Source of the DNA: Gracilariopsis chorda
Lineage: Eukaryota; Rhodophyta; Florideophyceae; Gracilariales; Gracilariaceae
NCBI GenBank assembly: GCA_003194525.1
Contig: NBIV01000417.1
Location: 1-45,012 of the forward strand
Length of the DNA stretch: 45,012 nt
Direction: 5' to 3'
In this document: piece after piece, positions 7,850 to 28,651 of the stretch
How the letters are laid out: each line of letters begins with the position of its first letter
Position numbering within the stretch: position 1 is the stretch's first letter
The notes under the pieces: generated by a model
What the model was told of the DNA's origin: nothing
What the model saw: only the letters and a program-made list of their open reading frames with translations
The model's database searches: none
Program-made: the position numbers and the translations under genes

Positions 7850-7859
7850 TAATCCCCTT

Positions 7860-8060: not shown

Positions 8061-8063
8061 GAA

Positions 8064-8106
8064 CACACCAAGCCATAAAGATCGTAAACCGGAAGAAGAA
8101 AAATAA
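8064..8106 (+). repeat. B2 split direct repeat, right end of the DIRS-like element
   Basis: Identical to B1 (7860-7902). Mariner transposase coding sequence resumes within 3 nt of its end. Confidence 0.9.
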
Positions 8107-8108
8107 AG

Positions 8109-8938: not shown

Positions 8939-8960
8939 TTCAAATGAAGTGCGAGGTTTT

Positions 8961-9007
8961 GTTTTTTGGTCTTTATAATGTTTCGCGGCTCTATATAAAT
9001 TTCACTG
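8961..9007 (-). repeat. Right TIR of the mariner element
   Basis: Inverted match to 2295-2340. It ends CACTG followed by TA at 9008-9009. Confidence 0.6.
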
Positions 9008-9386
9008 TAGCATTTCTATAATAAAAATGAGCTTCTTGGTTCTACTTGTGGCTTTATGGTGTCCTTTTGTTTTGCTCTGCGTCCGTTTCATGGCTACACG
9101 CGAGAAAACGAGCTGTTCTGTGTAGTTTCGGCCTCCGACCGGCCTCTAAAAGGATTTATAGCCGTTTCGCGCACTGTAGGTTCGTGCACGGCATGACCGC
9201 CGGCGAGCAGCCCACTTGCCGGGGACGGTTGTGCAAATATTTATTTGATGCAAGCTACCGGACATCGCGCTGTGCGCACTGGACAGCGTTGCGCAAACGT
9301 GTCGTGTCCTCATGGCACTCGCCTCGCCAGAGGTCAACGGGCTGTGACATACGGAGTGTCTCAATGGAGATGGAACGAACCACTCT
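9008..9386. other. Probable 5' LTR-like sequence of a third LTR family
   Basis: No gene is seen. The stretch contains CTCTAAAAGGATTTATAGCC (about 9145), similar in placement to the TAAAAGGAG-type TATA boxes of the LTRs at 9630, 30950 and 42980. It ends in TGTTACA directly before a primer-binding-site-like GTTGGTAGCATC. I read it as U3-R-U5 of a truncated element, start not determined. Confidence 0.35.
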
Positions 9387-9629
9387 GTTACAGTTGGTAG
9401 CATCTAATGGAATTCTTTTCTACAAGAATTGTTCAGTACGCGCAGAAGAATGCCGTGTGCGACGCGAAGCAAGGAGTCTGGAGATCAGAATTCTGCAGAT
9501 GACAGTCCGACGCTGAATGCTTTGCAAGATGAATTGCAAAGCTTAAAGAATACCTTGAAGAACCAGATCGAGTTGATTGAAAAGTTACAAGCACGTCTGG
9601 AAGGTACGAACGAGGCAATCGATGCAATC
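9387..9629 (+). mobile_element. LTR-retrotransposon stub: LTR end, PBS and start of gag
   Basis: The terminal GTTACA (9387-9392) is followed by TTGGTAGCATC (9394-9404), the same primer-binding sequence found after the LTRs at 31164 and, on the minus strand, below 44412. An ATG at 9450 opens a frame whose residues 18-60 form a heptad-rich coiled coil (ALQDELQSLKNTLKNQIELI), typical of gag N-termini. The frame is cut at 9630 by a solo LTR. It may be the only trace here of the autonomous partner of the short LTR elements. Confidence 0.5.
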
Positions 9630-9854
9630 TGTAATACAAACGTAGAGCTACAAGCTCGTCTCACGCCAGATTAGCACGATCGGCTTGTAGCTCACGCTTT
9701 AGGAGACAGTAGATCACAACGCTGAGACATGTCAACGAGCGTGTAGCCTTGCCAAAGAGTTAGGTAGACAGCTGCAACATTATAAAAGGAGCGTCAGCTG
9801 GCCTTCCTCTCCATTCGGGGAAGGCCAGACTCCATTCATCATCATTGTGTTACA
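9630..9854 (+). repeat. Solo LTR, family X
   Basis: A 225-bp sequence that begins TGTAATACAAACGTAGAGC and ends CATTGTGTTACA. It matches, in the opposite orientation, the LTRs at 42980-43203 and 44413-44636 over its length. It contains the inverted pair GAGCTACAAGC / GCTTGTAGCTC and a TATA-like ATTATAAAAGGAG. The flanking five bases differ (CAATC and TTATT), so no target-site duplication is visible; rearrangement or deletion after insertion is likely. Confidence 0.75.
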
Positions 9855-12498
9855 TTATTGTAATACAGTAACGTACTTCAAGCTATTGTGTCACGTAGGT
9901 TATAGTACATAGACTGTTCTAGACTTTGTAAGGCACAAGAGACAGTTGATATCAAAGAGCTACAGCTAGATTTGTGAGTATAAATATCTGTGAAGAGCTG
10001 CCGCTAAAAGTAATCAAAATAGAAGGCAAAACTGGAATAGTTCGACCTATTCCAGCCCTTTCACCCAAAGTGATCACAGAGTGTTTCATAGAAATCTTCG
10101 AATTTTCTTGCTCTGGTAAGATTCGGTTGATAGACAGGAAGTTCCTCTACGAAACCACTTGTATTGAACGTTTTGAGCGTAATAAAAGGCGGAAATCTCT
10201 CGAGTTCTTGGTACACTGAGTGCTCGGTGTCTTTGACGCATCGGATTCTCTCACGGTCTTCGGATTCGAACGTTACTTTTATGACTCTTGCAAGGAGCCA
10301 GCCTCGCTCATCCCATGACGCACATCTGGAGAACATTTCCCTTGGCAGCAATTGAATGTGGTAATAGAGAAGCCGGAAAGATCATCCTCTAGAGGATCAA
10401 CGATATATGGCAAAGCTCCTTCTGGGAAGACAGCTGTGCATTTTGATTGCATGTTGAGCTAATTGGAGGAAACTCTTTGAAAAAAGTAGCGTTTCTAGAC
10501 GTGTTGGAGTGTTCAACAGAACTGGAACAATGTCCAAAATTCAACGCTAATAAATAGATTTCTTATAAATGTATCAATAGAGTTACAAAACGGTTATTAT
10601 TTCAGAAAAAATTATGCGCCATGTCACACGGAGCATTTTGTGCTCTTTTTTGGAGACACGCACTGTTTGGATCAGTTTGCTACCAGCAAATGGAATTCTG
10701 AAGAAAAAAACATATCTGGCTGGCCCTGAATTCGGATGATGAAAAGAACACATGCCAAAATGTTAGTTTTCTTTGACACTCTCCTACGTGGAACAATACC
10801 AATAGTTTGGTATGGTGGAAAGGGTTCACACAATTTCCAATTTATCATGTCCTAAAATGGGAAGTTTTTTATGGCAATATGGATATTTTTGAAAATCGAA
10901 AACAGTTTATTCAATTCTAAAACGAACGTTAAGTTCTAGAGCAACTTTAGTCAAAATTTTGCATCATCTTATCTATACAAGAAGAATTGCTAGTGAAAAA
11001 GTAATAAGACTGTAACTATAATAGAACGTTTGATATACTACGGGCATGTGTTTAGCACTAATTTACGTCCATCGTATTACAGTAACCTTTTCTTTACGCG
11101 TGCACGACAAGAGCTTTGCTTGCTTCTCGAAGACATCCTGTACAAAACAGACGATTCTGCGCAAAATCTGTGTCTTGTGCGATATAACAATGTTATAACA
11201 CCCAAAACAGAGTAACTACTCAAAAAGACAGCCATGGTACAGCGATTTGTAAATTGCGCAGATTCTGACAACGCAACAAAAATCAGAGTAAACATGTACA
11301 AACTAAATGACAGAGCAAATAGAGAAATTAAGATGAAAATTATTGCTTTCTACGTTGAAACAACTTTATTGCGTATAAAACCGATAGATTCTTGTTAGCG
11401 CTGCATTTCTTAATTCTAAGCTACACCATTCCTATCATGGCGACCATAACTCCCGAACATGTACAGGGCGAAGAAAAGGCGTCGTGCGGAACCTTCATAT
11501 CGCCAGATCGGTCTGACGAAGATACAATTGAGCCGCGCAACTAATTTAATTTTGCGCAAATACGGATATATGCGCATTTGCTGCGCATTTGCTCTAAATA
11601 TTAGTATGTTTCTCTATTGCTGGGTTATTAAGTAAAATAAATGTATTGCGTTGTTATCAAGGTTTTGAACAAAATAGGTCTTACTACGTGAAGATCCAGT
11701 TATTGCACAATCACTTCATTTTTGCAGTGTAGATCTATTGATACCGTTCTGCAGATTCGCTGAAGCCAATGGTCGTTCTGAGCGTTATACGAGCCATGTC
11801 TCAAGATATATGGTGAGAGCAATGCAAACGACCCGAAGGAGGAAGAGAGGAGCATGTGAAAATTGACGAAGGAAGAGACATTCGTTCCATAAGCGGCATT
11901 TGATGGGTTTTCAAACGCAAAAACTGTAGAGCAGTAGATTGTTAAAGTTCAGCGCGGATGGGCGAGGTTTGCTCTCGAGTGCATTGCCCGCTGTTGGGCT
12001 GTGTTGCCTAAAGGTAAAGCGGCAACAAAAAAACCACAACATCTGCAGACTCCTGCGCGGCTGTGAGCTGACGAGCTGTCGATTGCAGCGGTTGATGCAG
12101 ACGTATATGCCCTTTAGAACATTTTATGATTCTTTAGCCTGCTCTCAGCAGTTGAAAAGACTAGTAAATGTCGAAGGGCTAAAATATGTTGATTGATTCA
12201 ATGTAGATAGATGAGAGTTGAGTTGCTCAGACAGTAGTCTCTCTCTCTTCTTTATTCCTGAAGTACGCATAAATCATCACCAGTATCGATCGTAAGGCAT
12301 GGCAGTTGCAAGGCATCCTAAGAGGCGTAATTACACGCAAATGCTTGTATCTATTTCTATAAATTACTCATAGAACATATCGTAGACTCATATACGCATT
12401 CATTGAAGAAGGATTCCACTTCTGTGCTCATGAGGATAATGTTAAGTGTTATTCGGATAAAAGCAAAGTATCCAGTGCAGTCATATCGTGGTAGACAT
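9855..12498. other. 2.6 kb with no convincing gene
   Basis: AT-rich, with many stops in all frames. The longest frame with non-random look is minus 10351-10061 (containing WDERGWLLARVIKVTFES), which might be a protein remnant but matches nothing I can name. A TTTGCGCAAAT / GCGCATTTGC cluster lies at about 11550-11595, and a CTCTCTCTCTTC tract near 12238. I see no RNA gene and no complete transposon. Confidence 0.4.
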
Positions 12499-12700
12499 TC
12501 AATCTATTCTGCGTGCGCTCCGCTCACCAATTGACAATGGTTCGTACTTGAATGGGGGGTTTTCCCTTTTCGGCGCGTTTTGTGTTAAGAAATGATGGTA
12601 CGGGAGATTTGGAGCGCAGCAACAAGGGAAAGAGCAGTTCGAAGATAGAAAAATGAAGGGGGCGATAATGCCCGTACCGAATTGTGAAAGTGAATCAAAA

Positions 12701-12731
12701 GGGGTGTCCCAGGACATCCCTGGGACACCCC
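12701..12731 (+). other. Perfect hairpin, 13-bp stem
   Basis: GGGGTGTCCCAGG (12701-12713) pairs perfectly with CCTGGGACACCCC (12719-12731) across a 5-nt loop. It stands 25 bp before another perfect hairpin and 80 bp before the GC-rich minisatellite. Confidence 0.85.
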
Positions 12732-12756
12732 GTTGTGACATATTGTCAGCAAAGTT

Positions 12757-12783
12757 CGGAGATATCTGGTTCAGATATCTCCG
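12757..12783 (+). other. Perfect hairpin, 12-bp stem
   Basis: CGGAGATATCTG (12757-12768) pairs perfectly with CAGATATCTCCG (12772-12783) across a 3-nt loop, immediately upstream of the minisatellite. Confidence 0.85.
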
Positions 12784-12814
12784 AGCTGCCGCAACAACCG
12801 CCACCATCAACGCG

Positions 12815-13048
12815 CCGCAACGCGGCACACCGAACAGAAGTGGTTGGTGCGGCGCCTCCGCGGCGCCGCGCCGCAACGCGGCACACCGAACAGAAGTGGT
12901 TGGTGCGGCGCCTCCGCGGCGCCGCGGCGCAACGCGGCACAACGAACAGAAGTGGTTGGTGCGGCGCCTCCGCGGCGCCGCGCCGCAACGCGGCACACCA
13001 AACAGAAGTGGTTGGTGCGGCGCCTCCGCGGCGCCGTACCGCAACGCG
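12815..13048 (+). repeat. GC-rich minisatellite, 56-bp unit, four copies plus a partial
   Basis: Units start at 12815, 12871, 12927 and 12983, and a partial unit at 13039. Each carries CCGCAACGCGGCACACCGAA, then CAGAAGTGGTTGGTGCGG, then the dyad GGCGCCTCCGCGGCGCC. Copies differ by a few bases. Because 56 is not a multiple of 3, the long frames across it in all directions reflect lack of stops in GC-rich DNA, not a gene. Confidence 0.9.
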
Positions 13049-13450
13049 GCAGCAACAGTGTGGTGGCGGCGCTCGCGCGCCGCTGCCCGAGGCAGCGACA
13101 AGGAAAGCGTGGTGGCGGCGTTTGCGCGCCGCTGGCCAAGACAGCGAAGCGGCAACCGTGAAACCCGCAGGGAGGCCCCGGCGGCGCCGCCACCAGCAAG
13201 ACGTGTTAAGATTGTGAGGCGGCGCGCGCGCTGCGCGCCACCACCACCGCTACCACTGCTGTCGCTGCTACTGCTGCGCACCACCGCTACCACTGCTGTC
13301 GCTACTACTGCTGCGCGCATTGTCGCTACTACTGCTTCGCGCTGCCGCTGCTACTGCCGCCACTGCCGCACTGTCACTACTGCCACCGCTGCGCGTCACT
13401 GCCGCTGTGCGTCGCTGTCGCGGCTGCCCCTTCCGCCGCGTTTGGAACAA
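13049..13450. repeat. Low-complexity GC-rich tract (imperfect repeats)
   Basis: A two-copy imperfect repeat built on GTGGTGGCGGCG / GCGCGCCGCTG lies at about 13067-13145. It is followed by CTGCTGTCGCTACTACTGC-type triplet-rich repeats at about 13235-13425. No credible coding sequence; the long frames on both strands are compositional. Confidence 0.7.
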
Positions 13451-13531
13451 CCAACTCATAGTGCTTTAAGCAAGAAGGGGAGACAACACAATGTAAGAGG
13501 TAACGCAAACCGCTACTCGCAACGAGCGTGA

Positions 13532-15107: not shown

Positions 15108-15156
15108 TGTTGGATAATGCAGGAGCACGTGTGCCCGCAGGCATTCGTAAAGTGAC
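15108..15156 (+). repeat. First fragment of a probable older LTR, split by the Ty3 insertion
   Basis: It begins TGTTGGATAATGCAGG, the TGTTGG start common to copia LTRs (compare 35195). It runs into GTGAC, the Ty3 target duplication, and would resume at 22855. See 22855-23231. Confidence 0.35.
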
Positions 15157-15422
15157 TGTCGCGTGCCTGTGGTGCACACGCATTGATCTAGATATAGTTT
15201 TTATTCTGCACATTTTTATTGGGCGCTGCCCAGCTTCCAGCATGGAAGCTGAGCATTGCGCCCGCATAAATACTCGCCTCTCACACTGGCGGCTTCACCG
15301 CTCGAGGGGGGGGAGGCAGGAAGCAACCCGCACACCAAAAGAGTCAGTGGCCCCCCCTTTGTCGCCATCACCTCCACCCCTACAACAACAACGCGCGTCC
15401 TCCCCCGTTTCCTTGCGCAACA
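15157..15422 (+). repeat. Ty3 5' LTR
   Basis: 266 bp, TGTCGCGTGCC ... GCGCAACA. It carries a stem CAGCTTCC / GGAAGCTG nested between GGGCGC and GCGCCC (about 15221-15264), a TATA-like CATAAATA at 15265-15272, and a C/T-rich U5. Confidence 0.95.
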
Positions 15423-15457: not shown

Positions 15458-18400
15458 ATGGCCACTAAACTAATGTTTGACGGTAAAAAGTGTCGAGGTT
15501 TCAAAGTTCTTTTTCTACTTCGAGAATGTGTTGATGAGAGGTAAGCCTGAAGATGAAAACGCAACTGAGCTTCTCTGTCATCTTGAGGGAAAAGCCTTTG
15601 ACTACTACTATAACACCTATGCAGCGGATGGCATATTGCTTCCCGCAGCAGATGACTACGAGGCCGTGAAAACCGGGTTCTTCAAAGAGTTTACAGAAAA
15701 TGTCGAGCCTCAAGAATACATCCGAAGAGCAATGATGTGTAGATTACGCCCTGTTGATACACTGGCATCTCTTCAAGAGATGGATACCTGCTTCAACAAA
15801 GCTGGATTCAATATGGAAGCCAAGTTTGGACTGCTAAGGAATGCAGTGACCGAACATATGGACATGACACAGTTCGTTCTTCTTCGTGGTGTTACTGACT
15901 ATAATTCTCTGAAGGCAACAATCAGAGACTTTGTGGCTTGCCGAGAAACTCTAAACTCTTCTGTCAAGGCCAGAACGCCGCTGGGTACGGAAAGATCTGA
16001 GAGAAGGTGGATTCTTCGCCGACCAGAGCAGACGGTGCAGAGCCTGGAGTCCAAAGTGGAAGACTTGACAGACAAGCTTGCACATCTCACACTACTGGTA
16101 CAAAAGAAGCAAAGTGTCCAAATTGTTGACGCAAATGTGAGAACTTGTTCTTTCTGCCAGAAGCCAGGACATGGCGCCAACAGGTGCCCCTCAAACCCAC
16201 ACCGTGACACAAGATGTGGGCGCTGTCATAAGCTTGGGCATTCTAAGGCTACATGTTGGTCCCGGTCCCCTATTGAGAAAGAAAAACACGTTCGACTTGC
16301 GGAAGCAAACGTCGAATCCAAGGCAGAGGAACCTCTGAGAAAGAGGATTCCTCTACAGGATTCAGAGGCCACTGCCGCACAGGTCACTGTAGTCACCGAA
16401 GAACAAGAAGAGGATCCTGTGGTGGCAACGAAACGCGGTCCAGATGGCGAAGCACTTCTTAAGCAACCAAAAACCTCGAGGGTTGATATCGGCTCACTGC
16501 TAAACCCGAAAGACCAATTTCCATCTACAAAGTCCAAAGGTATAATAGACCTAACCGGCCCACCGGTGTACAGACAACGCAGAAAAGCGGCTTCACGAAG
16601 GAAAGGTGCGAAAAAGAAGCCAGTAACCCGAGGCAAACAATCAATTCCAGAACACGTTGGAAGGTACAATGTCTTAATCGAGCTCGCTAATGCCTCTTGT
16701 GGATTCAAATTCGGCCAGTTACTACGTGGAGACGCCGAGGAGGCCAGACGCGAAATTAGAAAGTTGTTCGTAAAGGGAACTACCCCACGAAAGGTAGCAG
16801 CGGTGGAAACCGGGACCAGCCCGAGGAGACTTAAGGTAGTAACCGTGAAGCTATACGGTACGACCGTACGAGCACTGCTCGACTCTGGAGCCGTACCCAA
16901 CCTTTTATCCACGAAACTATGCGAACGGCTGACCCTCTCTCCAGAACCTAGTGTCAGGAAGATTAAGGTCGCCGATGGGACTTCTTCCACAGTTCGAGGG
17001 GTCCTTCGCGACGTCCCTGTTGTCTTTGGAGATTCAAAAGTCACATTGAACTTTCTCGTTGTAGATGACCCCCCGGTTGATGTCATAGTTGGTTGCCCAG
17101 TGTTAGAGGAAATAATGGCTTGCATCGATCTTGGGAATCAAACCGTTTCTGTTACTATCGACGGGGTAACATCTGTGTTAGAACTAGAGTATGATCAGAG
17201 AATTTCTGAGTTATTAGAATCCGAGACAGATAGTGAGGATTTCACGTCCGACTCGGACCTTGTTCCGTTATCATCGAGCTCAGAAGAAGAGAACGATGAC
17301 CTGGTACTGTCCGTGAGAGACGTCGAACCGTTTGAACCGGACCTCTTAACTGCAGGGGAAGCTGAAGAACTTCCAGATCTCATCGAAGAAGATTCAGAAG
17401 AAGAGGAATACGGCCACGACAAGGAGATCATAACCATGCAAGACCACAACGATGATGATGAGAAATCCCTACTTCTCGCAGCAAAATTGAGATATTTACC
17501 GACAAAGATTCAAAAAGAATTCATGAGGATGCTAAGAGATGAAAATCTCGCGGCCTGGTCCCTGAATGACTTGCGTCCTTCGGACGTGCCAGTGAAGCAC
17601 TATTTTGAACTCAAAGATAATAACCCAATCCACTACCCTGCAAGGCGCCTCTCACCACGCCATAACGACCTCGTCAAAGCAGAAATTGATAATATGTTGA
17701 AGACAGGTATCATTACGCCCGCCACCTCAGCATGGTCCTTCCCGATCGTCATAGCCACTAAGAAAGATGGCAAGCCACGATTCTGTGTGGACTACCGAAC
17801 GCTCAATGCCAGGATGAAGGCTGATAGATGGCCTCTCCGGAAGATTGAGGAGATATTTGACGATCTAAAGGGAGCCCACATCTTCACGACACTAGACCTT
17901 TTTTCCGGATATTGGCAGGTTCGGGTATCGGAGGATTGTAAGGACGCCACCACCTTTGTTTGTAGATTTGGCACGTACAAGTTCGAAGTAATGCCGTTCG
18001 GACTTATGAACGCGCCAGCTACATTTCAGCGGATGATGGATGTTGTCCTTAGAGGATTGAAGTATGCTCGGGTATATTTAGATGATGTCGTGATATATTC
18101 GAAATGTATAGACGACCATCTGACACATTGTCAAAGTGTGTTCGCTCGTATCCGAAACAATGGTTTGAAATTGAAAGTGACAAAGTGTAGTTTCGCCCAG
18201 TCCAGAGTCAAGCTATTAGGACACATCGTGGACAAGACAGGAGTTCATGTAGACCCAGAGAAAATCACGGCCATACAGAAGGCCCCGAGCCCCTCGTCGA
18301 CAACGGAACTTCGAAGCTTTCTTGGCCTAGCGGGGTACTACAGAAGATTCATTCCAAATTTTGCGGAAGTCTCAGCCATTCTTCATGAAGCCACATCGTC

Positions 18401-18635
18401 AAAGAAGCAGTGGAGTTGGACCCCGGAGATGCAAGATGCATTTAACCATCTTAAGAACAGAATGACGTCACCCCCTGTGCTTACATTCCCAGACTTCAAT
18501 CAACCTTTCATAGTAGAGACCGATGCGTCATCGATATCACTGGGCATCGTACTATCACAAAAGAAGGACGATGGGAAGATCCACCCTATTCAGTACGCTA
18601 GCCGCACTATGAACAAGGCTGAACGCCGCATGTGA
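15458..18635 (+). pseudogene. Ty3 gag-protease-RT (frame broken at both ends)
   Basis: An ATG at 15458 opens gag (MATKLMFDG), but the main open frame (15477-18635, 1052 codons) is in another phase from the AAAAAG run near 15485, indicating an indel. Then come a gag capsid-like region, two CCHC zinc knuckles (CSFCQKPGHGANRC and CGRCHKLGHSKATC, nt 16143-16260), an aspartic protease (ALLDSGAVPN, flap VIVGCPVL), an acidic linker and RT with CVDYRTLN, TTLDLFSGYWQV, MPFGLMNAPATF and the catalytic YLDDVVIYSK (about 18075-18105), then the start of RNase H (VETDASSISLG). The frame ends at 18635 because a few bases are missing in the RNase H motif near 18622. Confidence 0.9.
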
Positions 18636-20142
18636 AAGGGAAGCTCTAGCAGTAGTCTTTGCTCTTAAGAAGTTTAGGGTGTATCTCTTGTCATCAATGC
18701 CCTTCACACTAATCACTGATCATCAGGCGTTACAGTACGCTTTTCGAAAGAAAGATATCCACGGTAGACTAGCCAGGTGGATGGACCTTTTGGCAGAGTA
18801 TGACTTTAAGATTCAATACCGAGCCGGTAGCAGCAATCAGGCCGCGGACTACCTTTCTAGAATTGACATACCGGAAACGGTGAGAGAGGGAGAATTAAGT
18901 CTGGTCGTACAGAACATAACGCTAGACAACGATCTTGAAGACGAGTTGGTGGCTACAAAAAGATTTCTTTCTGGCGTGGAAATAGGAATTGAAGACGCAC
19001 AACGAAAACGCACAATTAAAAGGAACGCAAAAGGATTCATTGTTTGGAATGGAAGGCTCATGAGGAGAACATCAAAGGGATTGCGATCGATCCCCTTCCG
19101 AAATGACAGAAAAGTGATCTTAAGAGCCTTTCACGACGACATCGGTCATTGGGGAATAGACTCTACCAGGAGTTTCGTATTGGAAAGGTACTGGTGGCCG
19201 AAGATATATCGTGACATCTTGGACTATGTGAAGAGCTGCAACGGGTGTCAACGAGCGGTAGGCATTCCGGCGTATAAGACTGGCCTTAAGTTTCCCTTGA
19301 CTGGGCTCTTTCATGCGTTTTCTACCGATTTTGCGGGACCACTACCTACATCCCAGAAAGGAAATCGATTCATACTAGTATGTGTGGAACACGTGACGGG
19401 ATGGCCGATTGCTCGAGCCACTGGAATGGCTACGACCCAAGTAGTTATAAAATTCGTACGCGAAGAGATCATACAGCCATTCGGTCTTCCCATGCTCATT
19501 ATATCTGATAATGCAACCTGTTTCCGAGCTAAAGCACTAACGGAATTCATGAAAGAAAAGGGTATCACGTGGAAAACGGTACTCGCATATGCACCCATGT
19601 CAAATGGGAGAGCAGAACGGATGGTTGGTACCCTGAAAAGTGCGATAGCCAAAGAGGTTATCCAAAGAAATGAGGAATGGGACGTAGTTCTATCAAGAGT
19701 GCTTTACGGATATCGAAGACGCCAGATGATAGATGGGAAGTCCCCATTTGAGCTACTATATGGCACAGCACCTCGAATGAACAACCACGAGCCCGCCGCG
19801 CTTGTTGCTCACTACAGTAGTATCCACAGGAGATTAGAGCTAATGGACGCAGAAATAGGTAGAGCAACTCGTGCCTTACGCCAGGAAGAAATTCAGCGTG
19901 ACGAAAGCGGAGTAATTCGCTTCAACGTTGGTGACGAAGTGCTCGTAGCAAAAGGACAAGCACTCAACGCCAAGAAGAAATGGACTCCATTTCAGTCCCG
20001 GTTCTACGGCCCCTGCCAAGTAATAAGATCATCTCACCCACGCTATGTTCTAAGTAGCTCACATCGAAGGGTGTCCCGAGAACCTATACACTCCAGACGG
20101 CTGGTATTGTACTATCGACGTCCTGCTCATCTGCAGGAGTAG
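18622..20142 (+). pseudogene. Ty3 RNase H remainder and integrase
   Basis: The frame after the break reads AACEREALAVVFALKKF and LITDHQALQYAF (RNase H), then integrase: the zinc-binding HHCC region (FHDDIGHWG ... CNGCQ, about 19131-19250), the catalytic core with D in STDFAGPL, D in ISDNATCF and E in SNGRAERMVGTL, and a C-terminal domain with YGPCQVIRSSHPRYVL. The open frame from 18679 to 20142 is intact (487 codons). Integrase inserts element DNA with a 5-bp stagger, matching the GTGAC duplication. No chromodomain follows. Confidence 0.9.
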
Positions 20143-20296: not shown

Positions 20297-20887
20297 TCAA
20301 TTTCCGCTTTCGACTTCATCATGGGGCAAATACTTGATGGAACTTTCACCTGGGTCTTTGCGATAAGCCCATACATGACGACCGTCCGAGAACTGAACGG
20401 GATGGGGAAACTCAGCAAGAGCTCGGCCACCTAGTTTAGTGGCAGAAGACAGGACTTGGCGAACCTTCTTCTCTCCAGCCATGATAGGTACCATTACGGC
20501 ATGAAATCGAGGGTCATCGTCCTTCCGATCGACGAGGCGGGAGCTACTAGAACGTCTCGTAGGACCTTTGCAGGCTGCACGGTGAACTGGAACAGACTCG
20601 ATTATCACACGAACCTCGCCCAAAGTAGCCTGAGGGAGAGCAGCGTAAGCTCTGAAAAGTTCCGGCTCATGGCGATAACTAGCTCGAGTAATTCTAGTTG
20701 GCGGCGTCTGCAAGGCCCCACGACCTATCGGAGGGACGATACCAATGGCATTGTCACCTTGCTCGACATGCGTGCCTCTACCAACGGATGTGTAGGGATC
20801 TTGAACCCCCCGGAAGCGAGTATAACGTTCCCTCAACTCCGGACAAAGGCAGTCAAAGCCAGTAATTTCATCACCGGATTGACTCAT
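20297..20887 (-). CDS. Antisense ORF 1 inside the Ty3 element, unknown function
   Basis: A 196-codon frame from ATG (20887) to a stop at 20297, opposite in direction to gag-pol. The product is mixed in charge, without signal peptide or membrane segment. It has a Ser/Arg run (RRSSSSRLVDRKDDD, about residue 130-145) and an ordered-looking C-terminus (FSDGRHVWAYRKD). I do not recognise a family. A minus-strand TATA box CTATATAA (20972-20965) is 78 bp upstream. It shares strand, location and promoter type with antisense ORF 2, suggesting that both are expressed genes of the element. Accidental openness is possible but less likely given two adjacent ORFs with matching promoters. Confidence 0.55.
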   Translation of the reverse strand: MSQSGDEITGFDCLCPELRERYTRFRGVQDPYTSVGRGTHVEQGDNAIGIVPPIGRGALQTPPTRITRASYRHEPELFRAYAALPQATLGEVRVIIESVPVHRAACKGPTRRSSSSRLVDRKDDDPRFHAVMVPIMAGEKKVRQVLSSATKLGGRALAEFPHPVQFSDGRHVWAYRKDPGESSIKYLPHDEVESGN

Positions 20888-20964
20888 GACTGGAAGAACT
20901 TATCTAAACGAACGGGTGACTTCGGTGAAAGGAAAGACTAACGCAATCATCTCCTGAACAGCTC

Positions 20965-20972
20965 TTATATAG
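20965..20972 (-). promoter_or_regulatory. Antisense TATA box for ORF 1
   Basis: CTATATAA on the minus strand, 78 bp before the ATG at 20887. The identical octamer precedes antisense ORF 2 at 22541-22534. Confidence 0.55.
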
Positions 20973-21122
20973 AGGAGCATTGCAAAGCGAGTGAAGACCA
21001 CTTTGTAGTTATGTCTACACCGGAGAAAAGCCTCAAGAAGACAAGATGTATACACAGAAAGAAGAATCATTTATTGGGCTCGAAGGAACACCATACGCAT
21101 AGGAACTATGAGGACAATTCAC

Positions 21123-22304
21123 TTAGTCTCGGCGACCTTTTGGACAGAGCTGACGGACCTCAATGATCTTCGAATACCGGGGATGACCCCCAGCGACTAA
21201 GAAGAAGGAATCCTTACAGAGTCGCAAGGGATGGCGCTCTGCACTATCCAGTATCATTCGGCGACGTCCATCGACCGCGACCAAATGGTTAAAGCGGGAT
21301 GAAGCATGACGGCCATCATACACGATACGCACTAGGTAGTAGCCAGAAGTCACGTTATCCCAAGCGGGGAAGTTCCGAAGCTCGATAGAAGTTTTTCGAA
21401 GCTCGACCTTAAAAGGGAGCCTCGTCACGAAAGAGCTCATCTCCCGCAGACTCGCGAATGTAGTAGGATTCGTCTCGAAGTACTCGGACAACCTGTTGGC
21501 ATCATCTCGACCACATGTCGCATCTATGACATTCAGGAGGGCAGCTTGCATACACTCACCATCGTTACTGCGAGTGTAAATGCGACGCTCGTCTCGTATG
21601 CTGAACTCCAGCAAACGAGTATCCAACGGACGCGCCCCTGAGCCTTGAGAGATGGAAACAGCGAATCCGGGATTCGCTTTGCACCATTCGATGATCAAAC
21701 TACGGCAGTCTCTACCATCGATATCAACGCCAGACCCTGGAGCAACGGGCGGACTAGGCGTATGTCCACTCTTCGCAAGATTCTTCGCGGCGGTCGCCAT
21801 CGGAGCAATACGAAAAGCCGGGCGAAATAAAGTCGTGTCGAACATCTGCAGTGTCCATATGTCAATCACCTGGAATCCGGAGAGTCCAACTTGTCGTCCA
21901 CTTGCTCCTCTAAACTGTCCCTCGAAGAAGAGTATGCGGTCTACTTCCCATCCGGAGTGGCGTGAGCTCGATCTCGCAGAGTTGGATATTGAGGGAGCAT
22001 CGTGGGCATGCGCCGAAGAAGAACCAGCTTTAAAAGGACCAGACCTTTCTCGAGGGGATCGATTATTACTCGCATCAGAGTGATGCGACCCTTTCTCTTG
22101 ATCGGCGACGCGAGAAGTCGGAGCTGGCACGGAGCGTAGTCGTGGCGGCATCGGCAGATTTGTCTTTCCAGCGAACGATTTTCTGGGGGCCTTTTGTCCT
22201 TGAGGACTAGGTTTGTGTCGAGTTGACCGTTTGGATATCGATTCGGTAGGACCTTGTTTCCGAAGTTGTTGCTTACGTCGAGCGTTTTTGCCACCTTTTC
22301 CCAT
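21123..22304 (-). CDS. Antisense ORF 2 inside the Ty3 element: putative papain/OTU-like cysteine protease
   Basis: A 393-codon frame from ATG (22304). Residues 1-120 are basic and Ser/Pro-rich, starting MGKGGKNARRKQQLRK, probably disordered and possibly nucleic-acid-binding or nuclear-targeting. The folded part is about 121-393. It contains NDGECMQAALL (C251), the form of an OTU/papain nucleophile motif (DGxC at the start of a helix), then RFNHLVAVDGRRRMILDS with H340 before a beta strand and D353 after it, the order Cys-His-Asp of papain-fold peptidases. If active it could process a protein, or remove ubiquitin-like modifiers if OTU-like. The gene is antisense between pol and the 3' LTR, with its own TATA. 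The family match is by motif pattern only; catalysis is not shown. Confidence 0.65.
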   Translation of the reverse strand: MGKGGKNARRKQQLRKQGPTESISKRSTRHKPSPQGQKAPRKSFAGKTNLPMPPRLRSVPAPTSRVADQEKGSHHSDASNNRSPRERSGPFKAGSSSAHAHDAPSISNSARSSSRHSGWEVDRILFFEGQFRGASGRQVGLSGFQVIDIWTLQMFDTTLFRPAFRIAPMATAAKNLAKSGHTPSPPVAPGSGVDIDGRDCRSLIIEWCKANPGFAVSISQGSGARPLDTRLLEFSIRDERRIYTRSNDGECMQAALLNVIDATCGRDDANRLSEYFETNPTTFASLREMSSFVTRLPFKVELRKTSIELRNFPAWDNVTSGYYLVRIVYDGRHASSRFNHLVAVDGRRRMILDSAERHPLRLCKDSFFLVAGGHPRYSKIIEVRQLCPKGRRD

Positions 22305-22533
22305 GGTTTCTCTTCCTACCCGAACACTTATCCCTCTTCTACAACGTTAGTGTAGATCGATTTTGGAGGCGAAAGGATCGCAGGAAGATATTCCCAATGG
22401 GCGTTGCCTAGTCGTGTAGTTCACTTTCGGCTTAGTACCTAGTCACGCTAGAAGCGTTTTCGGTGTGGTCCCGTATCCGCTCGCGCTTGAAGGTTGCCAA
22501 GCGGGAGAGCACGGAACCCGGACGGAAGGCCTG

Positions 22534-22541
22534 TTATATAG
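22534..22541 (-). promoter_or_regulatory. Antisense TATA box for the protease-like ORF
   Basis: CTATATAA on the minus strand, 230 bp before the ATG at 22304, next to a near-palindromic GC box (CGCCGCCCGGGGCGGCG, about 22550-22566). Confidence 0.5.
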
Positions 22542-22570: not shown

Positions 22571-22582
22571 GAGGGGGGAGTG
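22571..22582 (+). promoter_or_regulatory. Ty3 polypurine tract
   Basis: GAGGGGGGAGTG-like purine run directly before the 3' LTR; it would prime plus-strand DNA synthesis. Confidence 0.7.
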
Positions 22583-22849
22583 TGTCGCGTGCCTGTGGTG
22601 CACACGCATTGATCTAGATATAGTTTTTATTCTGCACATTTTTATTGGGCGCTGCCCAGCTTCCAGCATGGAAGCTGAGCATCGCGCCCGCATAAATACT
22701 TGCCTCTCACACTGGCGGCTTCACCGCTCGGGGGGGGGGAGGCAGGAAGCAACCCGCACACCAAAAGAGTCAGTGGCGCCCCCCTTTGTCGCCATCACCT
22801 CCACCCCTACAACAACAACGCGCGTCCTCCCCCGTTTCCTTGCGCAACA
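22583..22849 (+). repeat. Ty3 3' LTR
   Basis: 267 bp, nearly identical to 15157-15422, and followed by the GTGAC duplication. Confidence 0.95.
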
Positions 22850-22854
22850 GTGAC

Positions 22855-23231: not shown

Positions 23232-23442
23232 TGTGAAAGGTTGTGGAAGGTGTTCCCTCCGGCCGGTGGTGCTCGGGTCAGCGCCGCCGGCCGCTCTTTA
23301 TAGTCCTACAATTCTTATTAAAATGTACGTAATTAGGAGAGGTCTGCATTTGTAATCAAGAGAGTTGGACAAGATTACAAATGCAACTGACACTAAATTA
23401 CAACAGCCGATAGTGCAGCCGTACAAATTGCGTGTCCTCACA
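23232..23442 (-). repeat. Copia-1 3' LTR
   Basis: 211 bp; TGTGAAAGG ... CCTCACA when read on the plus strand. On the minus strand the purine-rich GCGAGGGACAG lies just upstream of it and would be the PPT. Confidence 0.93.
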
Positions 23443-23686
23443 CTGTCCCTCGCAAACAACTCTAAAGTTATTTGCGCATCATTAATGCCACCGTTAAAAA
23501 CCTAAATATCAGCAAAAACCATATAGGATAAAAAGCTGCATAGTTAGGAAAAGGTATAGCAATGTAATACTTATCTAAGTCCAAAATAGTGTTTTCAAGA
23601 ACAGATAATCTGGATAAAACGCATAGAAACAAAAACAAAACAAGAAACAAACAAAAAAAAAAAATTGGTCAATAAATGTTCAACAG

Positions 23687-26600
23687 TTATTGTAGTCCGC
23701 ACAAAACAGAAAGTTGGTATAAGCTTTCTCGGTTAGCAGCTTTTGTCATTATGTCAGCCGGCTGGGAATCAGTTCTGATCTCAAGTATTTTCAGCATTCC
23801 AGACTTCACAAGGTCTTTGACATGATGGTATTTCAGAGAAATATGTTTGTTTCTCTCAGACGTTTTTGAAGTCTTTGCAATAGAGTTTGCCGTAGAACTG
23901 TCTGTATAGATACAGACGGGATACATTCCGATAGGCTCTTCTTGCAGAATTTGGCAATGATGAAGCTCCCAAAATAGTCTTCGGATCCAAGTCACTAACT
24001 TAGCGCAATACGATAAAGCAATGTATTCAGCTTCTCCCGAAGACAAAGCCACGATTGTCTGTTTCTTGCTAGTCCATAGGATTGGAGCATCGTTGACTTT
24101 GATCAGTACTCCTGTCGTTGACTTCCTTGTTTCTCGGCATCCTGCCCAGTCCGCATCGCAAAAACCTTCCAAAGGTGATACACTGGTTGCGGGAAAGTGC
24201 ATACAAAGGTTCTTTGTTCCCTTTAAATATCTAAGCACTCGCTTTGCCAAAGCTAAGTGCCTTAAACAAGGTTTATGAACCTGTCTCGCCAGCATTGAAG
24301 CTGCAAACATGACGTCTGGTCTAGAAGCCACGGCTAGATACATCAGTTGTCCTACCAGTTTCCGATATTTCCGGTGGAGTGGAGGAGGCAGCTTCTGTTC
24401 CTGTTCGCTTGTACCCATGATAGAGTAGCCATGGTGCAACGGTGTTTGCACAGGGTTTGCGTTTCCGAGGTTATATTCTCGTAGCAGCTTATCCACATAC
24501 GTTTCCTGACTAACCTTGATGCCATGTCTGTCCCGACTGAGATGAAGTCCGACGAATGATTTGGCTTCTCCCAATAGTTTCACTTGAAAACGTCTCTTCA
24601 TTTCGGCTTTAAAGTCGTCCAGAAGAGACCTCGAGTCAGACGACATCAGTATGTCGTCCACAACGATGACGAGGATCAGTATCCCACTGCTTGATCGATA
24701 TATATAGAGACGGTAGTCCGTTTTCGATTGACGGAATTGCAGTGTGATCAACGTCGTGTGTAGAAACGATCCCCAGATCTGTCCAGCCTGCTTTGCCCCG
24801 TATAATGATTTCAGCAGTAGACATACTTTTCCCGGAACGTATGAAGTTCCAGACGAGTTCTGGGGTTGTTCCATGATCAATGGTTCATCGAGGTCGCCGT
24901 ACAGGTAGGCGTTGCTGATATCCATTGTTTCCAGCAAAAGGTCTTGCGCAGCAGCCTTTGCCAATGCCAACCTTATTGTCTCAAGTCTTGCGACTGGGGC
25001 ATAAAGGTTTTCAGGGTCGTAATCGATGTACGGTTTCTGCATGTCCCCTCGCGCTACACAACGTGCCTTAGGAAGGATATCCAAAGGTTTTGCGCTGAGT
25101 TGTTTTGCCGTAAATGTCCAAAGGAATGGGATTGGATTCATTCCTGGTTTTCGGTCAATGAGCTTCCATGTTTTGCGTTCGATGAGAGCGTCATACTCTC
25201 GGTCGATTGCGTCTGCCCATTCTGGTATTGTCCTTGCTTGGGAAAATGTCTTTGGTACTTTTTCCAGCTCACTGTTATTTGTTGAACGAGTGTGTGCCAC
25301 TAGACAATGTTCCAAAGCTGAGTCCAAGTGTTCTTCATCCACTTCGTCATTACGTTCTTCTGCTTCTGTCCTGCCCAAGGACGAGAAGTCGAGAAGCTCG
25401 TTGATGGAAGGCAGTATTTTCTTGGCCATCTTAAAGTCCCTTTGCCTCACCATGATCACTTTCTTTTGGGAAGGTATGTATACCCGATACAGTGTTTGGA
25501 AGCTCTCCATTCCAACGAAGTGGCCGTAGATGGCGCGTGGGAGTATTTTCTTGTTGGGAATGGTTTCCGACCTGTATATAAAGGCGTGGCCATCTTGTCC
25601 AAACTTCAGTAATGTATCGAACGATGGATTTTGTCCAAACCACTCTTTGTAGGGGATTCTCATGTCAAGTCGTGAGTTTGGAAGGCGGTTTCGCAGCCAG
25701 TTTGCATGCGATATCGCTTCTTCCCATAGTTCGAGTGGTAATTTTGATGCAAAGAGCAGAGTTCTGGCCGTTTTCCATAAGTCTTGGATAATTTTCTCCG
25801 CTGCGCCGTTAGACTCATGTGCATGTGGAGGAGTGTACTCCAAGAGGATCCCGTTATCTAATGCGTAATGGATGAACTCATTAGACCTATTCTCACCAGC
25901 TCCGTCGAGGCGAACGTGGTACAAACGGTTTTGGGGTTGTTCGTTTTCTGCGAGAGCCTTGTACCAACGTATTGATTGCGTGAATTGGTCTTTCTTAGTC
26001 AGGAAGTATATTGATGATGCCCTTGTATTGTTGTCAAGTATTACCTGCATGTACTTTGATCCTTGTAACGAAGGTGGGGATATTGGGCCTGTGAGGTCTG
26101 TGTGTGTCAAAGCTAAGGGGTGGTTTGCCACTGAATGCAAGCGTTGGGTTGGAGATCGCCTCGATTTTGCCTCAATGCATGGACTGCAATGTATGTTTTC
26201 GATTTCCGTCGGCGGCAGGTTAGGAATTCGTGAAGATTGCAGGATTGTGCGAAGCAACCTGTCCTTGCCGGGGTGTCCGAGTTTTTCATGCCAGTCAATT
26301 GCTGTGTTTCCGGGCATGACTTGTGCGGTTTGGGCTGTCGATGGAGCGATCGGCTTTGGTAGTGGGTACAAACCGCTTTTAGCTTTGCAGCGATGAAGTT
26401 CTTTCCCGTTTTTGACGTCACTTAGGACAAATCCATGAAAGGAGTCTTCGTTGGAAAAGGAAACGTTTGTGTGCTGTGATAAGACGTATAATGAAATAAG
26501 GTTTGAGTCAAACGAAGGTGTGTGCTTCGCAGGTAACCTTATTCCGTCTCCTACTGGCAGCATAATTGTCCCTGCTCCAACTATTTCCGATTGTCTGTCG

Positions 26601-27667
26601 CATGTTCGGACGGACTCATTTTCCACAGGCTCATAATCCCAGAAGAGGTTTCTGTCGTTTACAAACACATGAGTTGCTCCACAATCCAGCCAGGTTGTAG
26701 TTCCATTGTTCACTGAACAATATTTAGCTTCGGCAATAGCTACGAAACCTCGGGGCTGGGGGTTGCGGTTGTAGTGACTTGAGGGTTTGTTTGATCCTCC
26801 GTTGGAGTCCCAGTTCCTGTTTCCAGTACTAGATAATTGGTGTTTGTGTTTGTTGGCTTGGGGACCCCTGCGATGGTTTTGGTTGGGGTTGTTTTCTTTT
26901 CTCAACCGGCATTCGGAACGAATGTGACCTAGTTTTCCACAATGCCAACATCTAACGGATTTAGACTTCCTTTTCTTCACGGAGGAAATTAAGGATGTCT
27001 TTCTCGCAGCCATGTAGGGGTGCTGTGTATTTGGTGGTGGAGGTGCGGGGCTTGTTTGGTTTCTCGAGTCCCTGTGTTTGCGTCTGTCCATTTCTGATCT
27101 TATCAAAGAAGCAACTTGGTCATGTTCCATATCGTTGGCGTCTGCAAGTAGTGTGATAGCCATAAGAGAGTCTGGTAGAGTTCTGAGTAAGCAAGCAGTT
27201 CTCTCCTTATCGTTGAGAGCATCTCCTAGGCGTGCCAGTTCTAGAAAGATTGTTTCCATTTCGTGGAGATGTTCAAGGATATTTCCATCGTCCTTGAAAA
27301 CGAGATTGTTCAGGCGCTGTCGAAGGTTCATCTTGGTTTGGATGTTATCCTTCTTGTACGTACCCTCCAGTTTCCTCCAGACGTCCAACGCAGAACATTG
27401 TTCGCGTTCCAGTAATTCAGAAACGGCAACTACTGGTTGTGTTCCAAGGTTTTGAACAATAATCGAACGAGCTTTTCGATCCGCATCATCCCATCGGCGG
27501 CGGGCTTGGGCTGAGCTCTCGCCTTCCAATGGTCTGGGTTCGGTTAAGACGAAGAGAACTTGGTCAACATTCATCAAGTCCCTTATGTAGATCCTCCATG
27601 TGTAATAGTCCGAGGATCCTTTAAGGCGGGGAATAGTGCGCTTGCCTTCTTCTCTGTTCTCACTCAT
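23687..27667 (-). CDS. Ty1/copia gag-pol polyprotein, intact
   Basis: 1326 residues from a true ATG (27667). Gag (about 1-235) includes the copia gag helical pattern with LEHLHEMETIFLELARLG. A CCHC knuckle CWHCGKLGHIRSEC spans residues 240-253. The protease active site is WLDCGATHVF (D329; Cys replaces the usual Ser). Integrase has HEKLGHPGKDRL and CSPCIEAKS (zinc site), then D in HTDLTGPI, D in RLDGAGENRS and E in SNGAAEKII. RT has SLYGAKQAGQIWG and the catalytic IVVDDILMSS (VDD). RNase H has GFCDADWAGC and LSSGEAEYIAL, ending with the typical HVKDLV and DIMTKA motifs. The order protease-integrase-RT-RNase H defines Ty1/copia. The polyprotein would be cut by its own protease. Confidence 0.95.
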   Translation of the reverse strand: MSENREEGKRTIPRLKGSSDYYTWRIYIRDLMNVDQVLFVLTEPRPLEGESSAQARRRWDDADRKARSIIVQNLGTQPVVAVSELLEREQCSALDVWRKLEGTYKKDNIQTKMNLRQRLNNLVFKDDGNILEHLHEMETIFLELARLGDALNDKERTACLLRTLPDSLMAITLLADANDMEHDQVASLIRSEMDRRKHRDSRNQTSPAPPPPNTQHPYMAARKTSLISSVKKRKSKSVRCWHCGKLGHIRSECRLRKENNPNQNHRRGPQANKHKHQLSSTGNRNWDSNGGSNKPSSHYNRNPQPRGFVAIAEAKYCSVNNGTTTWLDCGATHVFVNDRNLFWDYEPVENESVRTCDRQSEIVGAGTIMLPVGDGIRLPAKHTPSFDSNLISLYVLSQHTNVSFSNEDSFHGFVLSDVKNGKELHRCKAKSGLYPLPKPIAPSTAQTAQVMPGNTAIDWHEKLGHPGKDRLLRTILQSSRIPNLPPTEIENIHCSPCIEAKSRRSPTQRLHSVANHPLALTHTDLTGPISPPSLQGSKYMQVILDNNTRASSIYFLTKKDQFTQSIRWYKALAENEQPQNRLYHVRLDGAGENRSNEFIHYALDNGILLEYTPPHAHESNGAAEKIIQDLWKTARTLLFASKLPLELWEEAISHANWLRNRLPNSRLDMRIPYKEWFGQNPSFDTLLKFGQDGHAFIYRSETIPNKKILPRAIYGHFVGMESFQTLYRVYIPSQKKVIMVRQRDFKMAKKILPSINELLDFSSLGRTEAEERNDEVDEEHLDSALEHCLVAHTRSTNNSELEKVPKTFSQARTIPEWADAIDREYDALIERKTWKLIDRKPGMNPIPFLWTFTAKQLSAKPLDILPKARCVARGDMQKPYIDYDPENLYAPVARLETIRLALAKAAAQDLLLETMDISNAYLYGDLDEPLIMEQPQNSSGTSYVPGKVCLLLKSLYGAKQAGQIWGSFLHTTLITLQFRQSKTDYRLYIYRSSSGILILVIVVDDILMSSDSRSLLDDFKAEMKRRFQVKLLGEAKSFVGLHLSRDRHGIKVSQETYVDKLLREYNLGNANPVQTPLHHGYSIMGTSEQEQKLPPPLHRKYRKLVGQLMYLAVASRPDVMFAASMLARQVHKPCLRHLALAKRVLRYLKGTKNLCMHFPATSVSPLEGFCDADWAGCRETRKSTTGVLIKVNDAPILWTSKKQTIVALSSGEAEYIALSYCAKLVTWIRRLFWELHHCQILQEEPIGMYPVCIYTDSSTANSIAKTSKTSERNKHISLKYHHVKDLVKSGMLKILEIRTDSQPADIMTKAANRESLYQLSVLCGLQ

Positions 27668-28440
27668 GTTGATGCCTTGTGAGTAGAGAAAGAGTGAATT
27701 GACCTCTGGTTATCGAGGTACCTTTTGTTAGTCTGCTTGACCTCTGGCTAGCGAGGTACCTTTTATTAGTCTTCCTTCGAGCGGGCGCACTGACAGGAGA
27801 AACTACCTCCGCTACCCTAAGGGTTCAACCCCTGGAACCGGGTCACACTCTCCCGGTGAGTCGCTTTGATCTGCCTGCTAAGCTTCTCGCGAAAAGAAGC
27901 AAAGTGCCTTGAATCCTTACGAAGCTTCCAAGGGAGGTTACTAACTGAAGATAAGTTTTCACCAGTTGACCCCTTCTGGCCTCTTGCAGGAATGCTGCGC
28001 GGCGTTCTTCGGAGCGATAAGTTGAAGGAGATAGTACAAAACTCCACCGGCGTATGCGGTAGCTTGGGCCAAACGACGACACACCGTGTCACCACTAGCA
28101 GACAGAGCCTCCCCCAGCAGAGCCGGTTATCCGGAAGGAATGTCAAATCTAGCAGATTACTTCAAGTGCCCAATCGATTCCCGTACCGGTGCTCAGCTTG
28201 CAAGCTACCACGCCTTTATCCGTTCGACGAAAAGAGATGAAAAAAAGAAGAAAAACAAATACCACAAAGATACAAGATGAAAAAAAAAGCCTTTTATCAG
28301 CGAGAAGAGAAAGGTTGTATGTTGATGCTTCCGTGGGTCCAAGGAATGGTTCGGTACAGAGCGTTGCGGGGCGCCGGTTGAAGTTTGGTCAGCGGTTGTC
28401 GAGGGGAGAGGCGGCGGGGAGGGTTGAGCGAGTGCTACCA
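27668..28440 (-). other. Copia-1 leader (773 bp) with an internal duplication
   Basis: A long untranslated leader on the minus strand, with T-rich tracts on that strand near 28230-28285. A tandem duplication lies next to gag: the unit TTGACCTCTGG..CGAGGTACC occurs twice at about 27698-27773. TCTACTCACAAG (minus, 27687-27676) is 8 nt from the gag ATG and has the look of a 3' splice site, so a leader intron is possible. Frames here are short and unconvincing. Confidence 0.5.
28426..28440 (-). promoter_or_regulatory. Copia-1 primer-binding site
   Basis: TGGTAGCACTCGCTC on the minus strand, directly inside the 5' LTR. TGGTAGCA complements the TGCTACCA 3' end known from initiator tRNA-Met of animals. 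Confidence 0.7.
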
Positions 28441-28651
28441 TGTGAAAGGTTGTGGAGGGTGTTCCCTCCGGCCGGTGGTGCTCGGGTCAGCGCCGCCGGC
28501 CGCTCTTTATAGTCCTACAATTCTAATTAAAATGTACGTAATTAGGAGAGGTCTGCATTTGTAATCAAGAGAGTTGGACAAGATTACAAATGCAACTGAC
28601 ACTAAATTACAACAGCCGATAGTGCAGCCGTACAAATTGCGTGTCCTCACA
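28441..28651 (-). repeat. Copia-1 5' LTR
   Basis: 211 bp, nearly identical to 23232-23442; it is the promoter-side LTR for the minus-strand element. Confidence 0.93.

Follow-up and report, generated by a model that had tools for sequence, protein, structure and literature searches.

The 45,012 nucleotides analysed here (hereafter the window) are positions 1 to 45,012 of contig NBIV01000417.1 of the red alga Gracilariopsis chorda. They contain a 7.7-kb Ty3/gypsy long terminal repeat (LTR) retrotransposon that holds, between pol and its 3' LTR, two open reading frames (ORFs) of 393 and 196 codons on the strand opposite to gag-pol. The larger ORF, and the gene family to which it belongs, are the subject of this report. 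An earlier note on this DNA had proposed that it encodes a cysteine protease-like protein of papain or OTU type, and had called an antisense, self-promoted gene of this kind unusual.

The carrier is a Ty3/gypsy LTR retrotransposon, with paired LTRs, a target-site duplication and the domain order protease, reverse transcriptase, RNase H, integrase (Table 1). The boundaries proposed in the earlier note are borne out by the coordinates of the repeats and by the GTGAC that flanks them, and both antisense ORFs lie exactly where it had placed them. The LTR sequence opens with TGTCGCG and closes with GCGCAACA; the two LTRs align over 268 columns, of which 3 are mismatches and 2 are gaps, and one of the gaps is an artefact of a 5' LTR sliced one base too long. 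Since the LTRs are nearly identical, the insertion is young. The pol frame of this copy is broken within RNase H, where one sense ORF ends (18635) before the next begins (18679). A further 299-codon open frame lies opposite the gag-pol ORF (16226-17125, minus strand), with one weak Pfam row (DUF5852, E 0.27).

Table 1. Features of the carrier element (window coordinates)
Feature	Coordinates	Strand	Basis
5' target-site duplication, GTGAC	15152-15156	.	sequence
5' LTR, 266 nt	15157-15422	+	paired with 3' LTR
gag-pol ORF part 1: aspartic protease, reverse transcriptase, start of RNase H	15477-18635	+	Pfam
pol ORF part 2: end of RNase H, integrase	18679-20142 (ATG to stop 18697-20142)	+	Pfam
Antisense ORF, 196 amino acids, no assigned function, only in the window's element lineage	20297-20887	-	ORF call, genome search, dN/dS
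TATA-like TATATAAG, candidate antisense promoter, 84 nt upstream of the ATG of the 196-amino-acid ORF	20964-20971	-	motif only
Antisense ORF, 393 amino acids: basic N-terminus, C-terminal cysteine-hydrolase-like domain (about residues 196-389)	21123-22304	-	ORF call, alignments, dN/dS
Asp353 codon	21246-21248	-	counted from 22304; 22/22 rows
His340 codon	21285-21287	-	counted from 22304; 21/22 rows
Cys251 codon, putative nucleophile	21552-21554	-	counted from 22304; 22/22 rows
TATA-like TATATAAC, candidate antisense promoter, 236 nt upstream of the ATG of the 393-amino-acid ORF	22533-22540	-	motif only
Purine-rich tract before the 3' LTR, candidate polypurine tract	22571-22582	+	sequence
3' LTR, 267 nt	22583-22849	+	paired with 5' LTR
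3' target-site duplication, GTGAC	22850-22854	.	sequence

Under uniform codon use, the chance of a 393-codon open frame is about 6e-9. Coding constraint was estimated as the ratio of nonsynonymous to synonymous substitution (dN/dS; Nei-Gojobori method), with 11 close copies of the 393-amino-acid ORF compared with that of the window (loci are numbered L, contigs C). The ratio is 0.156, 0.168, 0.155 and 0.123 against L005, L008, L011 and L013 respectively (dS 1.0-1.2), and 0.235-0.418 against the other seven copies (dS 0.02-0.25). Constraint on the ORF is therefore comparable to that on the proteins of the element itself (0.12-0.17 versus 0.22), the integrase end giving 0.222 between the window and L013. 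Window and L008 differ at 70, 66 and 190 first, second and third codon positions; read in any of its other five frames, this DNA contains 9-22 stops per sequence and, frame -1 excepted, gives dN/dS values of 1.5-2.2. In the lineage of the window, other copies of the element do contain the ORFs, the pattern is not one of random stops, and the conservation is at the level of codons, the points on which the earlier note had left its claim to depend. Ratios below 1 were also obtained for the protease-like gene of the distant carriers described below (L041-L044, 0.371; L042-L048, 0.273; L039-L043, 0.293), and for the 196-amino-acid ORF against L005, L008 and L013 (0.26-0.31), the six nearer copies giving 0.22-1.00 for this smaller ORF. 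Many single copies of the larger gene hold stops. I read this pattern as purifying selection along transposing lineages together with decay of single insertions.

The TATA-like motifs upstream of both window ORFs are suggestive only as antisense promoters. A TATAWA motif lies 235-242 nt upstream of the ATG of the larger gene in the window and in six of eight other close copies (L002, L003, L004, L009, L010, L012); L005 and L008 have CTACATATTTT at a comparable place, without the TATATAAC form. The motif is further seen in L041 (-220) and L039 (-196) and was not found upstream of the gene in L042 or L054; by chance, I estimate, a stretch of 420 nt would hold about 0.2 such motifs. The idea that all carriers have an antisense TATA box finds no support, the motif being missing from L042 and L054 and altered in L005 and L008. 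The gene may be self-promoted, as the earlier note has it; the TATA-like motifs that would point to this are not shared by all lineages. An env-like gene does not fit the antisense orientation; the window protein, moreover, has no transmembrane-like stretch (highest 19-residue mean hydropathy, 0.77).

Carriers of the gene family across the genome

The genome searched comprises 91.3 Mb in 1081 contigs, the window being contig C417. Matches to the phycobilisome linker family lie at seven places in it, one of which encodes a linker of 351 amino acids. In the PDB, the top score of this linker is to a much longer chain, matched over 5 stretches (8imn, CpcN; 565.5 bits), and its best full-length match in one stretch is LR3 of 5y6p, from Griffithsia (467.6 bits), followed by LR3 of 6kgx, from Porphyridium (291 bits). 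I take these matches to indicate a florideophyte red alga as the host. A six-frame search with the 393-amino-acid protein gave 107 matches. Some are close copies and fragments of the gene, 53-100% identical and many with stops; others form a distant set, mostly 23-30% identical over residues ~204-387, in which many frames are open. The 196-amino-acid ORF gave 40 rows, located in the close copies and nearer relatives, with the remainder at chance level.

About 8 kb was inspected around four of the distant matches. Three of them (L039 on C75, L041 on C42 and L042 on C5) lie between direct repeats spaced 6.5-6.9 kb and have long sense ORFs, with the family gene antisense after pol; the ~8-kb stretch of the fourth, L040 (C177), contains no direct repeats. 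Pfam identifies a gypsy pol (RVT_1, RNase H, INT) in the window, L041 and L042, and a copia reverse transcriptase (RVT_2) in L039, L040 and L065 (C369); L068 (C99) matches the L039 copia pol in two pieces (46% and 37%). A search with pol proteins, which covered 21 stretches around gene copies, found L039-type pol ends adjoining L043, L047, L050, L051 and L052, an L040-type end adjoining L059, and gypsy pol ends adjoining L044, L045, L046, L007 and L023. No pol match was obtained in 10 of the 21 stretches (L064, L053, L048, L054, L055, L056, L057, L058, L060, L020), most of which have little DNA on the pol side; the carrier type of L057 was resolved through L068. Judged by the type of pol, members of one gene family stand at an equivalent antisense position in Ty3/gypsy and in Ty1/copia elements, and the family would therefore have crossed between the superfamilies at least once. 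The initial observation of an antisense gene in a gypsy element holds, and is richer than described: the family is common to gypsy and copia.

The extent of the association was surveyed from the integrase side. Of 3941 candidates 89 were scored, and the 90 rows listed were paired with 66 protease rows, the remaining rows being scanned by eye without a further neighbour coming to light. An antisense protease match lies downstream of the integrase in 30 of the 90 rows listed (29 elements, C300 occurring twice), and one integrase-gene pair on the same strand was found within 4 kb. The distance from integrase to gene is 983-1325 nt in the window lineage (1782 in one C300 row), where the 196-amino-acid gene lies between the two. 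For the C5 and C42 lineages it is 161-166 nt and 109-131 nt respectively. All 16 rows of at least 60% integrase identity are carriers, as are 14 of the 74 rows at 51-59%: presence of the gene is patchy among related gypsy elements.

As regards the arrangement of these elements, the commonest non-carrier gypsy type is represented by L063 (C573), with a spacing of 5,679 nt. Non-carrier gypsy units stand on the same strand ~5.68 kb apart on C573, C883, C819, C516, C462, C191 and C642, which suggests tandem arrays sharing LTRs. On C43, copies of the antisense gene are ~6.72 kb apart.

Conserved residues, relationships and homology searches

Conservation was assessed in a 22-row alignment (A1) that counts the window as a row and includes some near-identical rows. 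It draws on 16 of the 18 distant gene regions (L052 and L060, broken by stops, were left out) and, of 30 loci from the six-frame search, on the window's gene and L008 only; some rows are the open parts of copies with stops elsewhere (e.g. L040, L059). Although the rows are mostly 17-25% identical to the window protein, G321 and D345 are present in 22 of 22, as are two of the three residues singled out in the earlier note, C251, H340 and D353, all of which lie at the places it gave (Table 1). In an alignment of ten representatives (A2), C251, G321, H340, D345, D353, E356, L362 and G372 are invariant (window numbering). The segment from residue 196 to 393 of the window protein contains 6 Cys, 4 His and 14 Asp, of which only C251, H340, D345 and D353 are kept throughout. 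The Cys stands in a run like CxxAAxxN; a hydrophobic run follows far downstream, the His opens another (HVVxVD), and the Asp comes 13 residues past the His (ILDS). Directly past the His, the rows read VV, VI, TL, LV, CA, VA or VL. In papain-like enzymes the order is Cys, then His, then Asp or Asn, and this order, that of clan CA peptidases, is found in the family alignment. The N-terminus of the larger ORF is basic, as the earlier note had it, with a net charge of +16 over the first 60 residues; the corresponding values are +15 for L008 and L053, +8 for L042 and +2 for L041.

A tree was inferred from 21 of the 22 A1 rows, the truncated L040 being dropped; it is unrooted and has long branches, and the carrier labels of L008, L048, L054, L055, L056 and L058 are taken from their nearest relatives. 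Ten of the eleven copia rows group together (support 94/90), L059 standing apart, and gypsy rows occur in at least two places. A single copia clade is not rejected (approximately unbiased test, p 0.351), and so no more than "at least one" crossing between superfamilies is claimed here; division of the copia carriers into more than one clade is, by the same test, unsupported. The window, L041 and L042 have pol proteins that are 57-59% identical and proteases that are 24-26% identical, the window protease being 25-30% identical to those borne by copia elements. No such jump separates the window from the C138/C64 subfamily (integrase 66%, proteases 69-76%) or, among copia carriers, L039 from C369 (pol 70%, protease 50%). 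The jump in protease divergence between the gypsy carriers suggests either replacement of the cassette or very fast divergence, as in an arms race.

One relative stands apart by its context. L053, on C439, is an intact 424-codon gene with Cys, His and Asp in place. Within positions 1-11500 of this contig (loci L053, L064 and L067), no pol match reaches E 0.01 (best 0.030) and no direct repeats were found (18-mer seed, >500 nt apart), hence no LTRs were detected. The contig starts with an array of short-unit repeats, and the frames neighbouring the gene look host-like on a reading of their translations. The C439 gene may be a domesticated copy, or else the source or ancestral host gene.

Database searches were made with single sequences and with the family. 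Pfam has no match for either antisense ORF, and the profile search of the product of 22304-21123 that the earlier note had recommended returned no peptidase profile. A protein database of 5.8 billion sequences gave nothing at E up to 10 for the single sequence or the 22-row alignment, candidates in this search having to share 5-residue words with the query; the same database does contain a Chondrus crispus integrase 49% identical to that of the window. A single IMG/VR scan, in which the window protein was used to look for a viral origin, detected no relative. Stray weak rows, each from a single member (AEP1, 0.12; a class A beta-lactamase model, 0.054; phrog_22433, 0.018), were taken as chance, and Pfam did not bear out my impression that the copia versions resemble a chromodomain in their N-terminal half.

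Other features of the window

Two Ty1/copia elements with near-identical LTRs and RVT_2 lie at 23232-28651 and 35195-40330. The former has its pol at 27667-23687 on the minus strand, the latter gag at 35490-36920 and pol at 36945-39752 on the plus strand; neither has room for an antisense gene, because only ~210-250 nt separate pol from the 3' LTR. An element-like unit at 2609-8060 is marked by 166-nt direct repeats 5.3 kb apart and contains two overlapping ORFs (4033-5580 and 5142-7730), with a weak RVT_1 match (E 7.6e-4). Tandem repeats occur at 12755-13090 (56-nt units), within overlapping open frames on the minus (12499-13320) and plus (12653-13531) strands, and at 43948-44185 (31-nt units). 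A dispersed repeat of ~160 nt is found at 9699-9859, 42975-43135 and 44411-44568, one copy being inverted relative to the other two, and a 71-nt inverted repeat with 60 nt between its arms lies at 40648-40849.

Interpretation and relation to known systems

The best reading of these sequences is that the 393-amino-acid ORF is an antisense accessory gene for a cysteine-hydrolase-like protein not previously described, for which a papain-like fold in general is plausible. I consider it probable that the ORF is a selected accessory gene for a protein of cysteine protease type, shared by gypsy and copia elements and acting in trans. Transcription would probably start at a promoter that lies upstream of the ORF, before the 3' LTR is reached, where the TATA-like motif is a candidate, and selection keeps the gene during propagation of the element, in gypsy and copia lineages alike. 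The encoded protein has a basic N-terminal tail, in the window lineage, and a C-terminal domain of ~190 residues built around Cys, His and Asp; it is most likely a cysteine protease of papain-like (clan CA) type, or a ubiquitin/SUMO deconjugase, of an undescribed family. Acting in trans on a host or element protein, it may, in the simplest case, remove ubiquitin-like tags or cleave a factor of silencing or turnover, and the benefit would be that element proteins or integration complexes survive. The sequences establish the gene, its strand, its conservation and selection, the conserved residues and its presence in both superfamilies; transcription, catalysis, fold, substrate and benefit are inferences.

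Several results weigh against this explanation. Searches of Pfam, NCBIfam and PHROG with the family gave no significant match and no peptidase family; in PDB, the single window sequence had no match and two profile searches yielded nothing above chance (best E 0.16 and 0.25). One aligned row, L047, has Gln in place of His340. The TATA-like site upstream of the gene is not universal across lineages. The gene is absent from 60 of the 90 integrase rows, 56 of them at 52-53% identity, the others being C40 (59%), C146 (57%), C186 (54%) and C137 (51%). In the comparison of the window with L008, the complementary frame -1 also has a low dN/dS (0.280), with 10-13 stops. Finally, the ratio is near or above 1 in near-identical pairs (L042-L054, 1.109; L049-L051, 0.963; L004-L006, 1.205; L008-L011, 1.098), as is expected for decaying insertions, selection being invisible at that depth.

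That the protein is an OTU-family deubiquitinase, captured like those of Helitrons and Ginger1 transposons, agrees with the Cys-His-Asp order, with the DGEC of the window and with a small profile-profile alignment in which the active-site helices match up (E 0.03, a single comparison). The OTU box DGxC, however, is confined to the window lineage, where 2 of the 22 rows have it; the residues that follow the His never resemble the H-Y with which four OTU domains from the same genome end; PF02338 matches none of the 22 rows at E up to 10; and hhalign gives a probability of 1.6% against a small OTU profile of 4 rows. I therefore regard this assignment, which the earlier note had suggested, as very unlikely. 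The OTU and Josephin models do match elsewhere in this genome, at 6 and 4 places respectively. A Josephin (ataxin-3 type) domain was likewise rejected: PF02099 has no match, hhalign gives 0.1% (3-row profile), and a likeness of CxQxxLxN and H...LDS to Josephin did not score. As a separate observation, L071 (C758) and L072 (C372) are near-identical stretches that match only the C-terminal half of the Josephin profile, and may be exons or a repeated gene. An unlikely but broader alternative is a conserved protein that has no protease activity, its Cys, His and Asp being structural or serving other chemistry, as in a nucleic-acid-binding regulator or a hydrolase of another fold. The basic tails of several members and the failure of every peptidase profile would fit such a protein, as would the plant antisense accessory proteins TRP28 and gene23, which are described as nuclear or predicted to bind DNA (PMC7264820, PMC11963269). 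Against it stands the arrangement of the residues. The order C, H, D, with a His that opens a hydrophobic, strand-like run, is the papain-like pattern.

Two further alternatives concern the role of the transcript and the history of the gene. The antisense ORF could be mainly a source of antisense RNA, for self-silencing or regulation of the sense RNA, with the protein secondary; this has been raised for plant elements (PMC7264820), and here the antisense unit and the 3' portion of the sense RNA would overlap. Constraint at the amino-acid level over long divergence, and residues kept between copia and gypsy carriers, make this highly improbable, and dN/dS largely refutes antisense RNA as the sole role. 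The other alternative, which I hold to be somewhat unlikely, is that no transfer between elements took place, C439 being a surviving member of a host gene family from which each lineage took a different gene. The intact C439 gene, among host-like frames with no pol or LTRs detected, is what such a history would leave, and among gypsy carriers an integrase identity of 57-58% goes with a protease identity of only 24-25%. C439, however, is the sole case of its kind among the contexts examined, and it groups with gypsy copies (support 94/88, on a long branch), so that the direction from element to host is equally possible; repeated capture, always antisense and at the same place, is also the less economical history.

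Antisense ORFs between pol and the 3' LTR, termed aORF-3R, are known from plant gypsy elements, including Grande gene23, RIRE2 and Retand ORF4. Grande gene23 is reported to have its own antisense promoter and a nuclear location, and the plant proteins to contain TRP28, SMC-like or other listed domains, or none known (PMC7264820, PMC11963269). The 393-amino-acid ORF is an aORF-3R, lying between pol and the 3' LTR on the opposite strand in most copies of its lineage, and it resembles the plant genes in these respects and in its coding conservation. It differs in its host, a red alga, the elements covered by those accounts being of plants and one fungus, in being carried by copia as well as gypsy elements, and in specifying a Cys-His-Asp protein without a Pfam match. 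The claim that such a gene is unusual must be narrowed, since plant gypsy elements are known to have antisense accessory ORFs in this position, one of them with a promoter of its own; what stands is that none that is protease-like, or common to copia and gypsy, was found in the literature searched. That search covered LTR antisense ORFs, cysteine proteases and OTU, and red algal elements, the red-algal entries being judged by title or start of abstract and most subscription journals lying outside its scope; the main text of PMC11963269 contains no word beginning with protease or peptidase.

More distant parallels exist. HTLV-type retroviruses have an antisense gene (PMC7264820, PMC11963269). 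Like the present gene, it lies near the 3' LTR of an LTR element. The HTLV gene, HBZ, encodes a bZIP regulator and not a protease-like protein. A module of similar type, a ubiquitin-type cysteine protease (putative here) on a mobile element, is represented by the OTU and Ulp1 domains of Ginger1, Mutator and Helitron (PMC2836005). Those accounts concern DNA transposons and domains that can be aligned to OTU or Ulp1, unlike the separate antisense gene of an LTR element, without an OTU match, described here. The catalytic order of Ulp1 is His-Asp-Cys, unlike Cys-His-Asp. Sharing of an accessory enzyme type between unrelated classes of retroelement has its precedent in the ORF3 enzymes of bdelloid rotifers (DEDDy exonuclease, GDSL esterase), common to LTR and Penelope-like elements (PMC5408684). 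The bdelloid enzymes are different ones, described as made from spliced messages, and the single use of "antisense" in the text of that paper concerns small RNAs.

Reviews describe as undetermined what antisense accessory ORFs do in LTR retrotransposons (PMC7264820, PMC11963269). With a strongly constrained gene, a testable candidate active site, dozens of copies and two superfamilies of carriers, that question becomes experimentally approachable. The family would be a new one of cysteine hydrolases, and an instance of a gene that copia and gypsy elements share. I put forward tentatively, and at somewhat less than even likelihood, that it is a new cysteine protease family which, as an antisense cassette, has been exchanged between Ty1/copia and Ty3/gypsy elements in red algae and, in C439, either domesticated by the host or taken from it. 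If so, this would be the first known case of an antisense accessory gene for an enzyme that is shared across LTR superfamilies.

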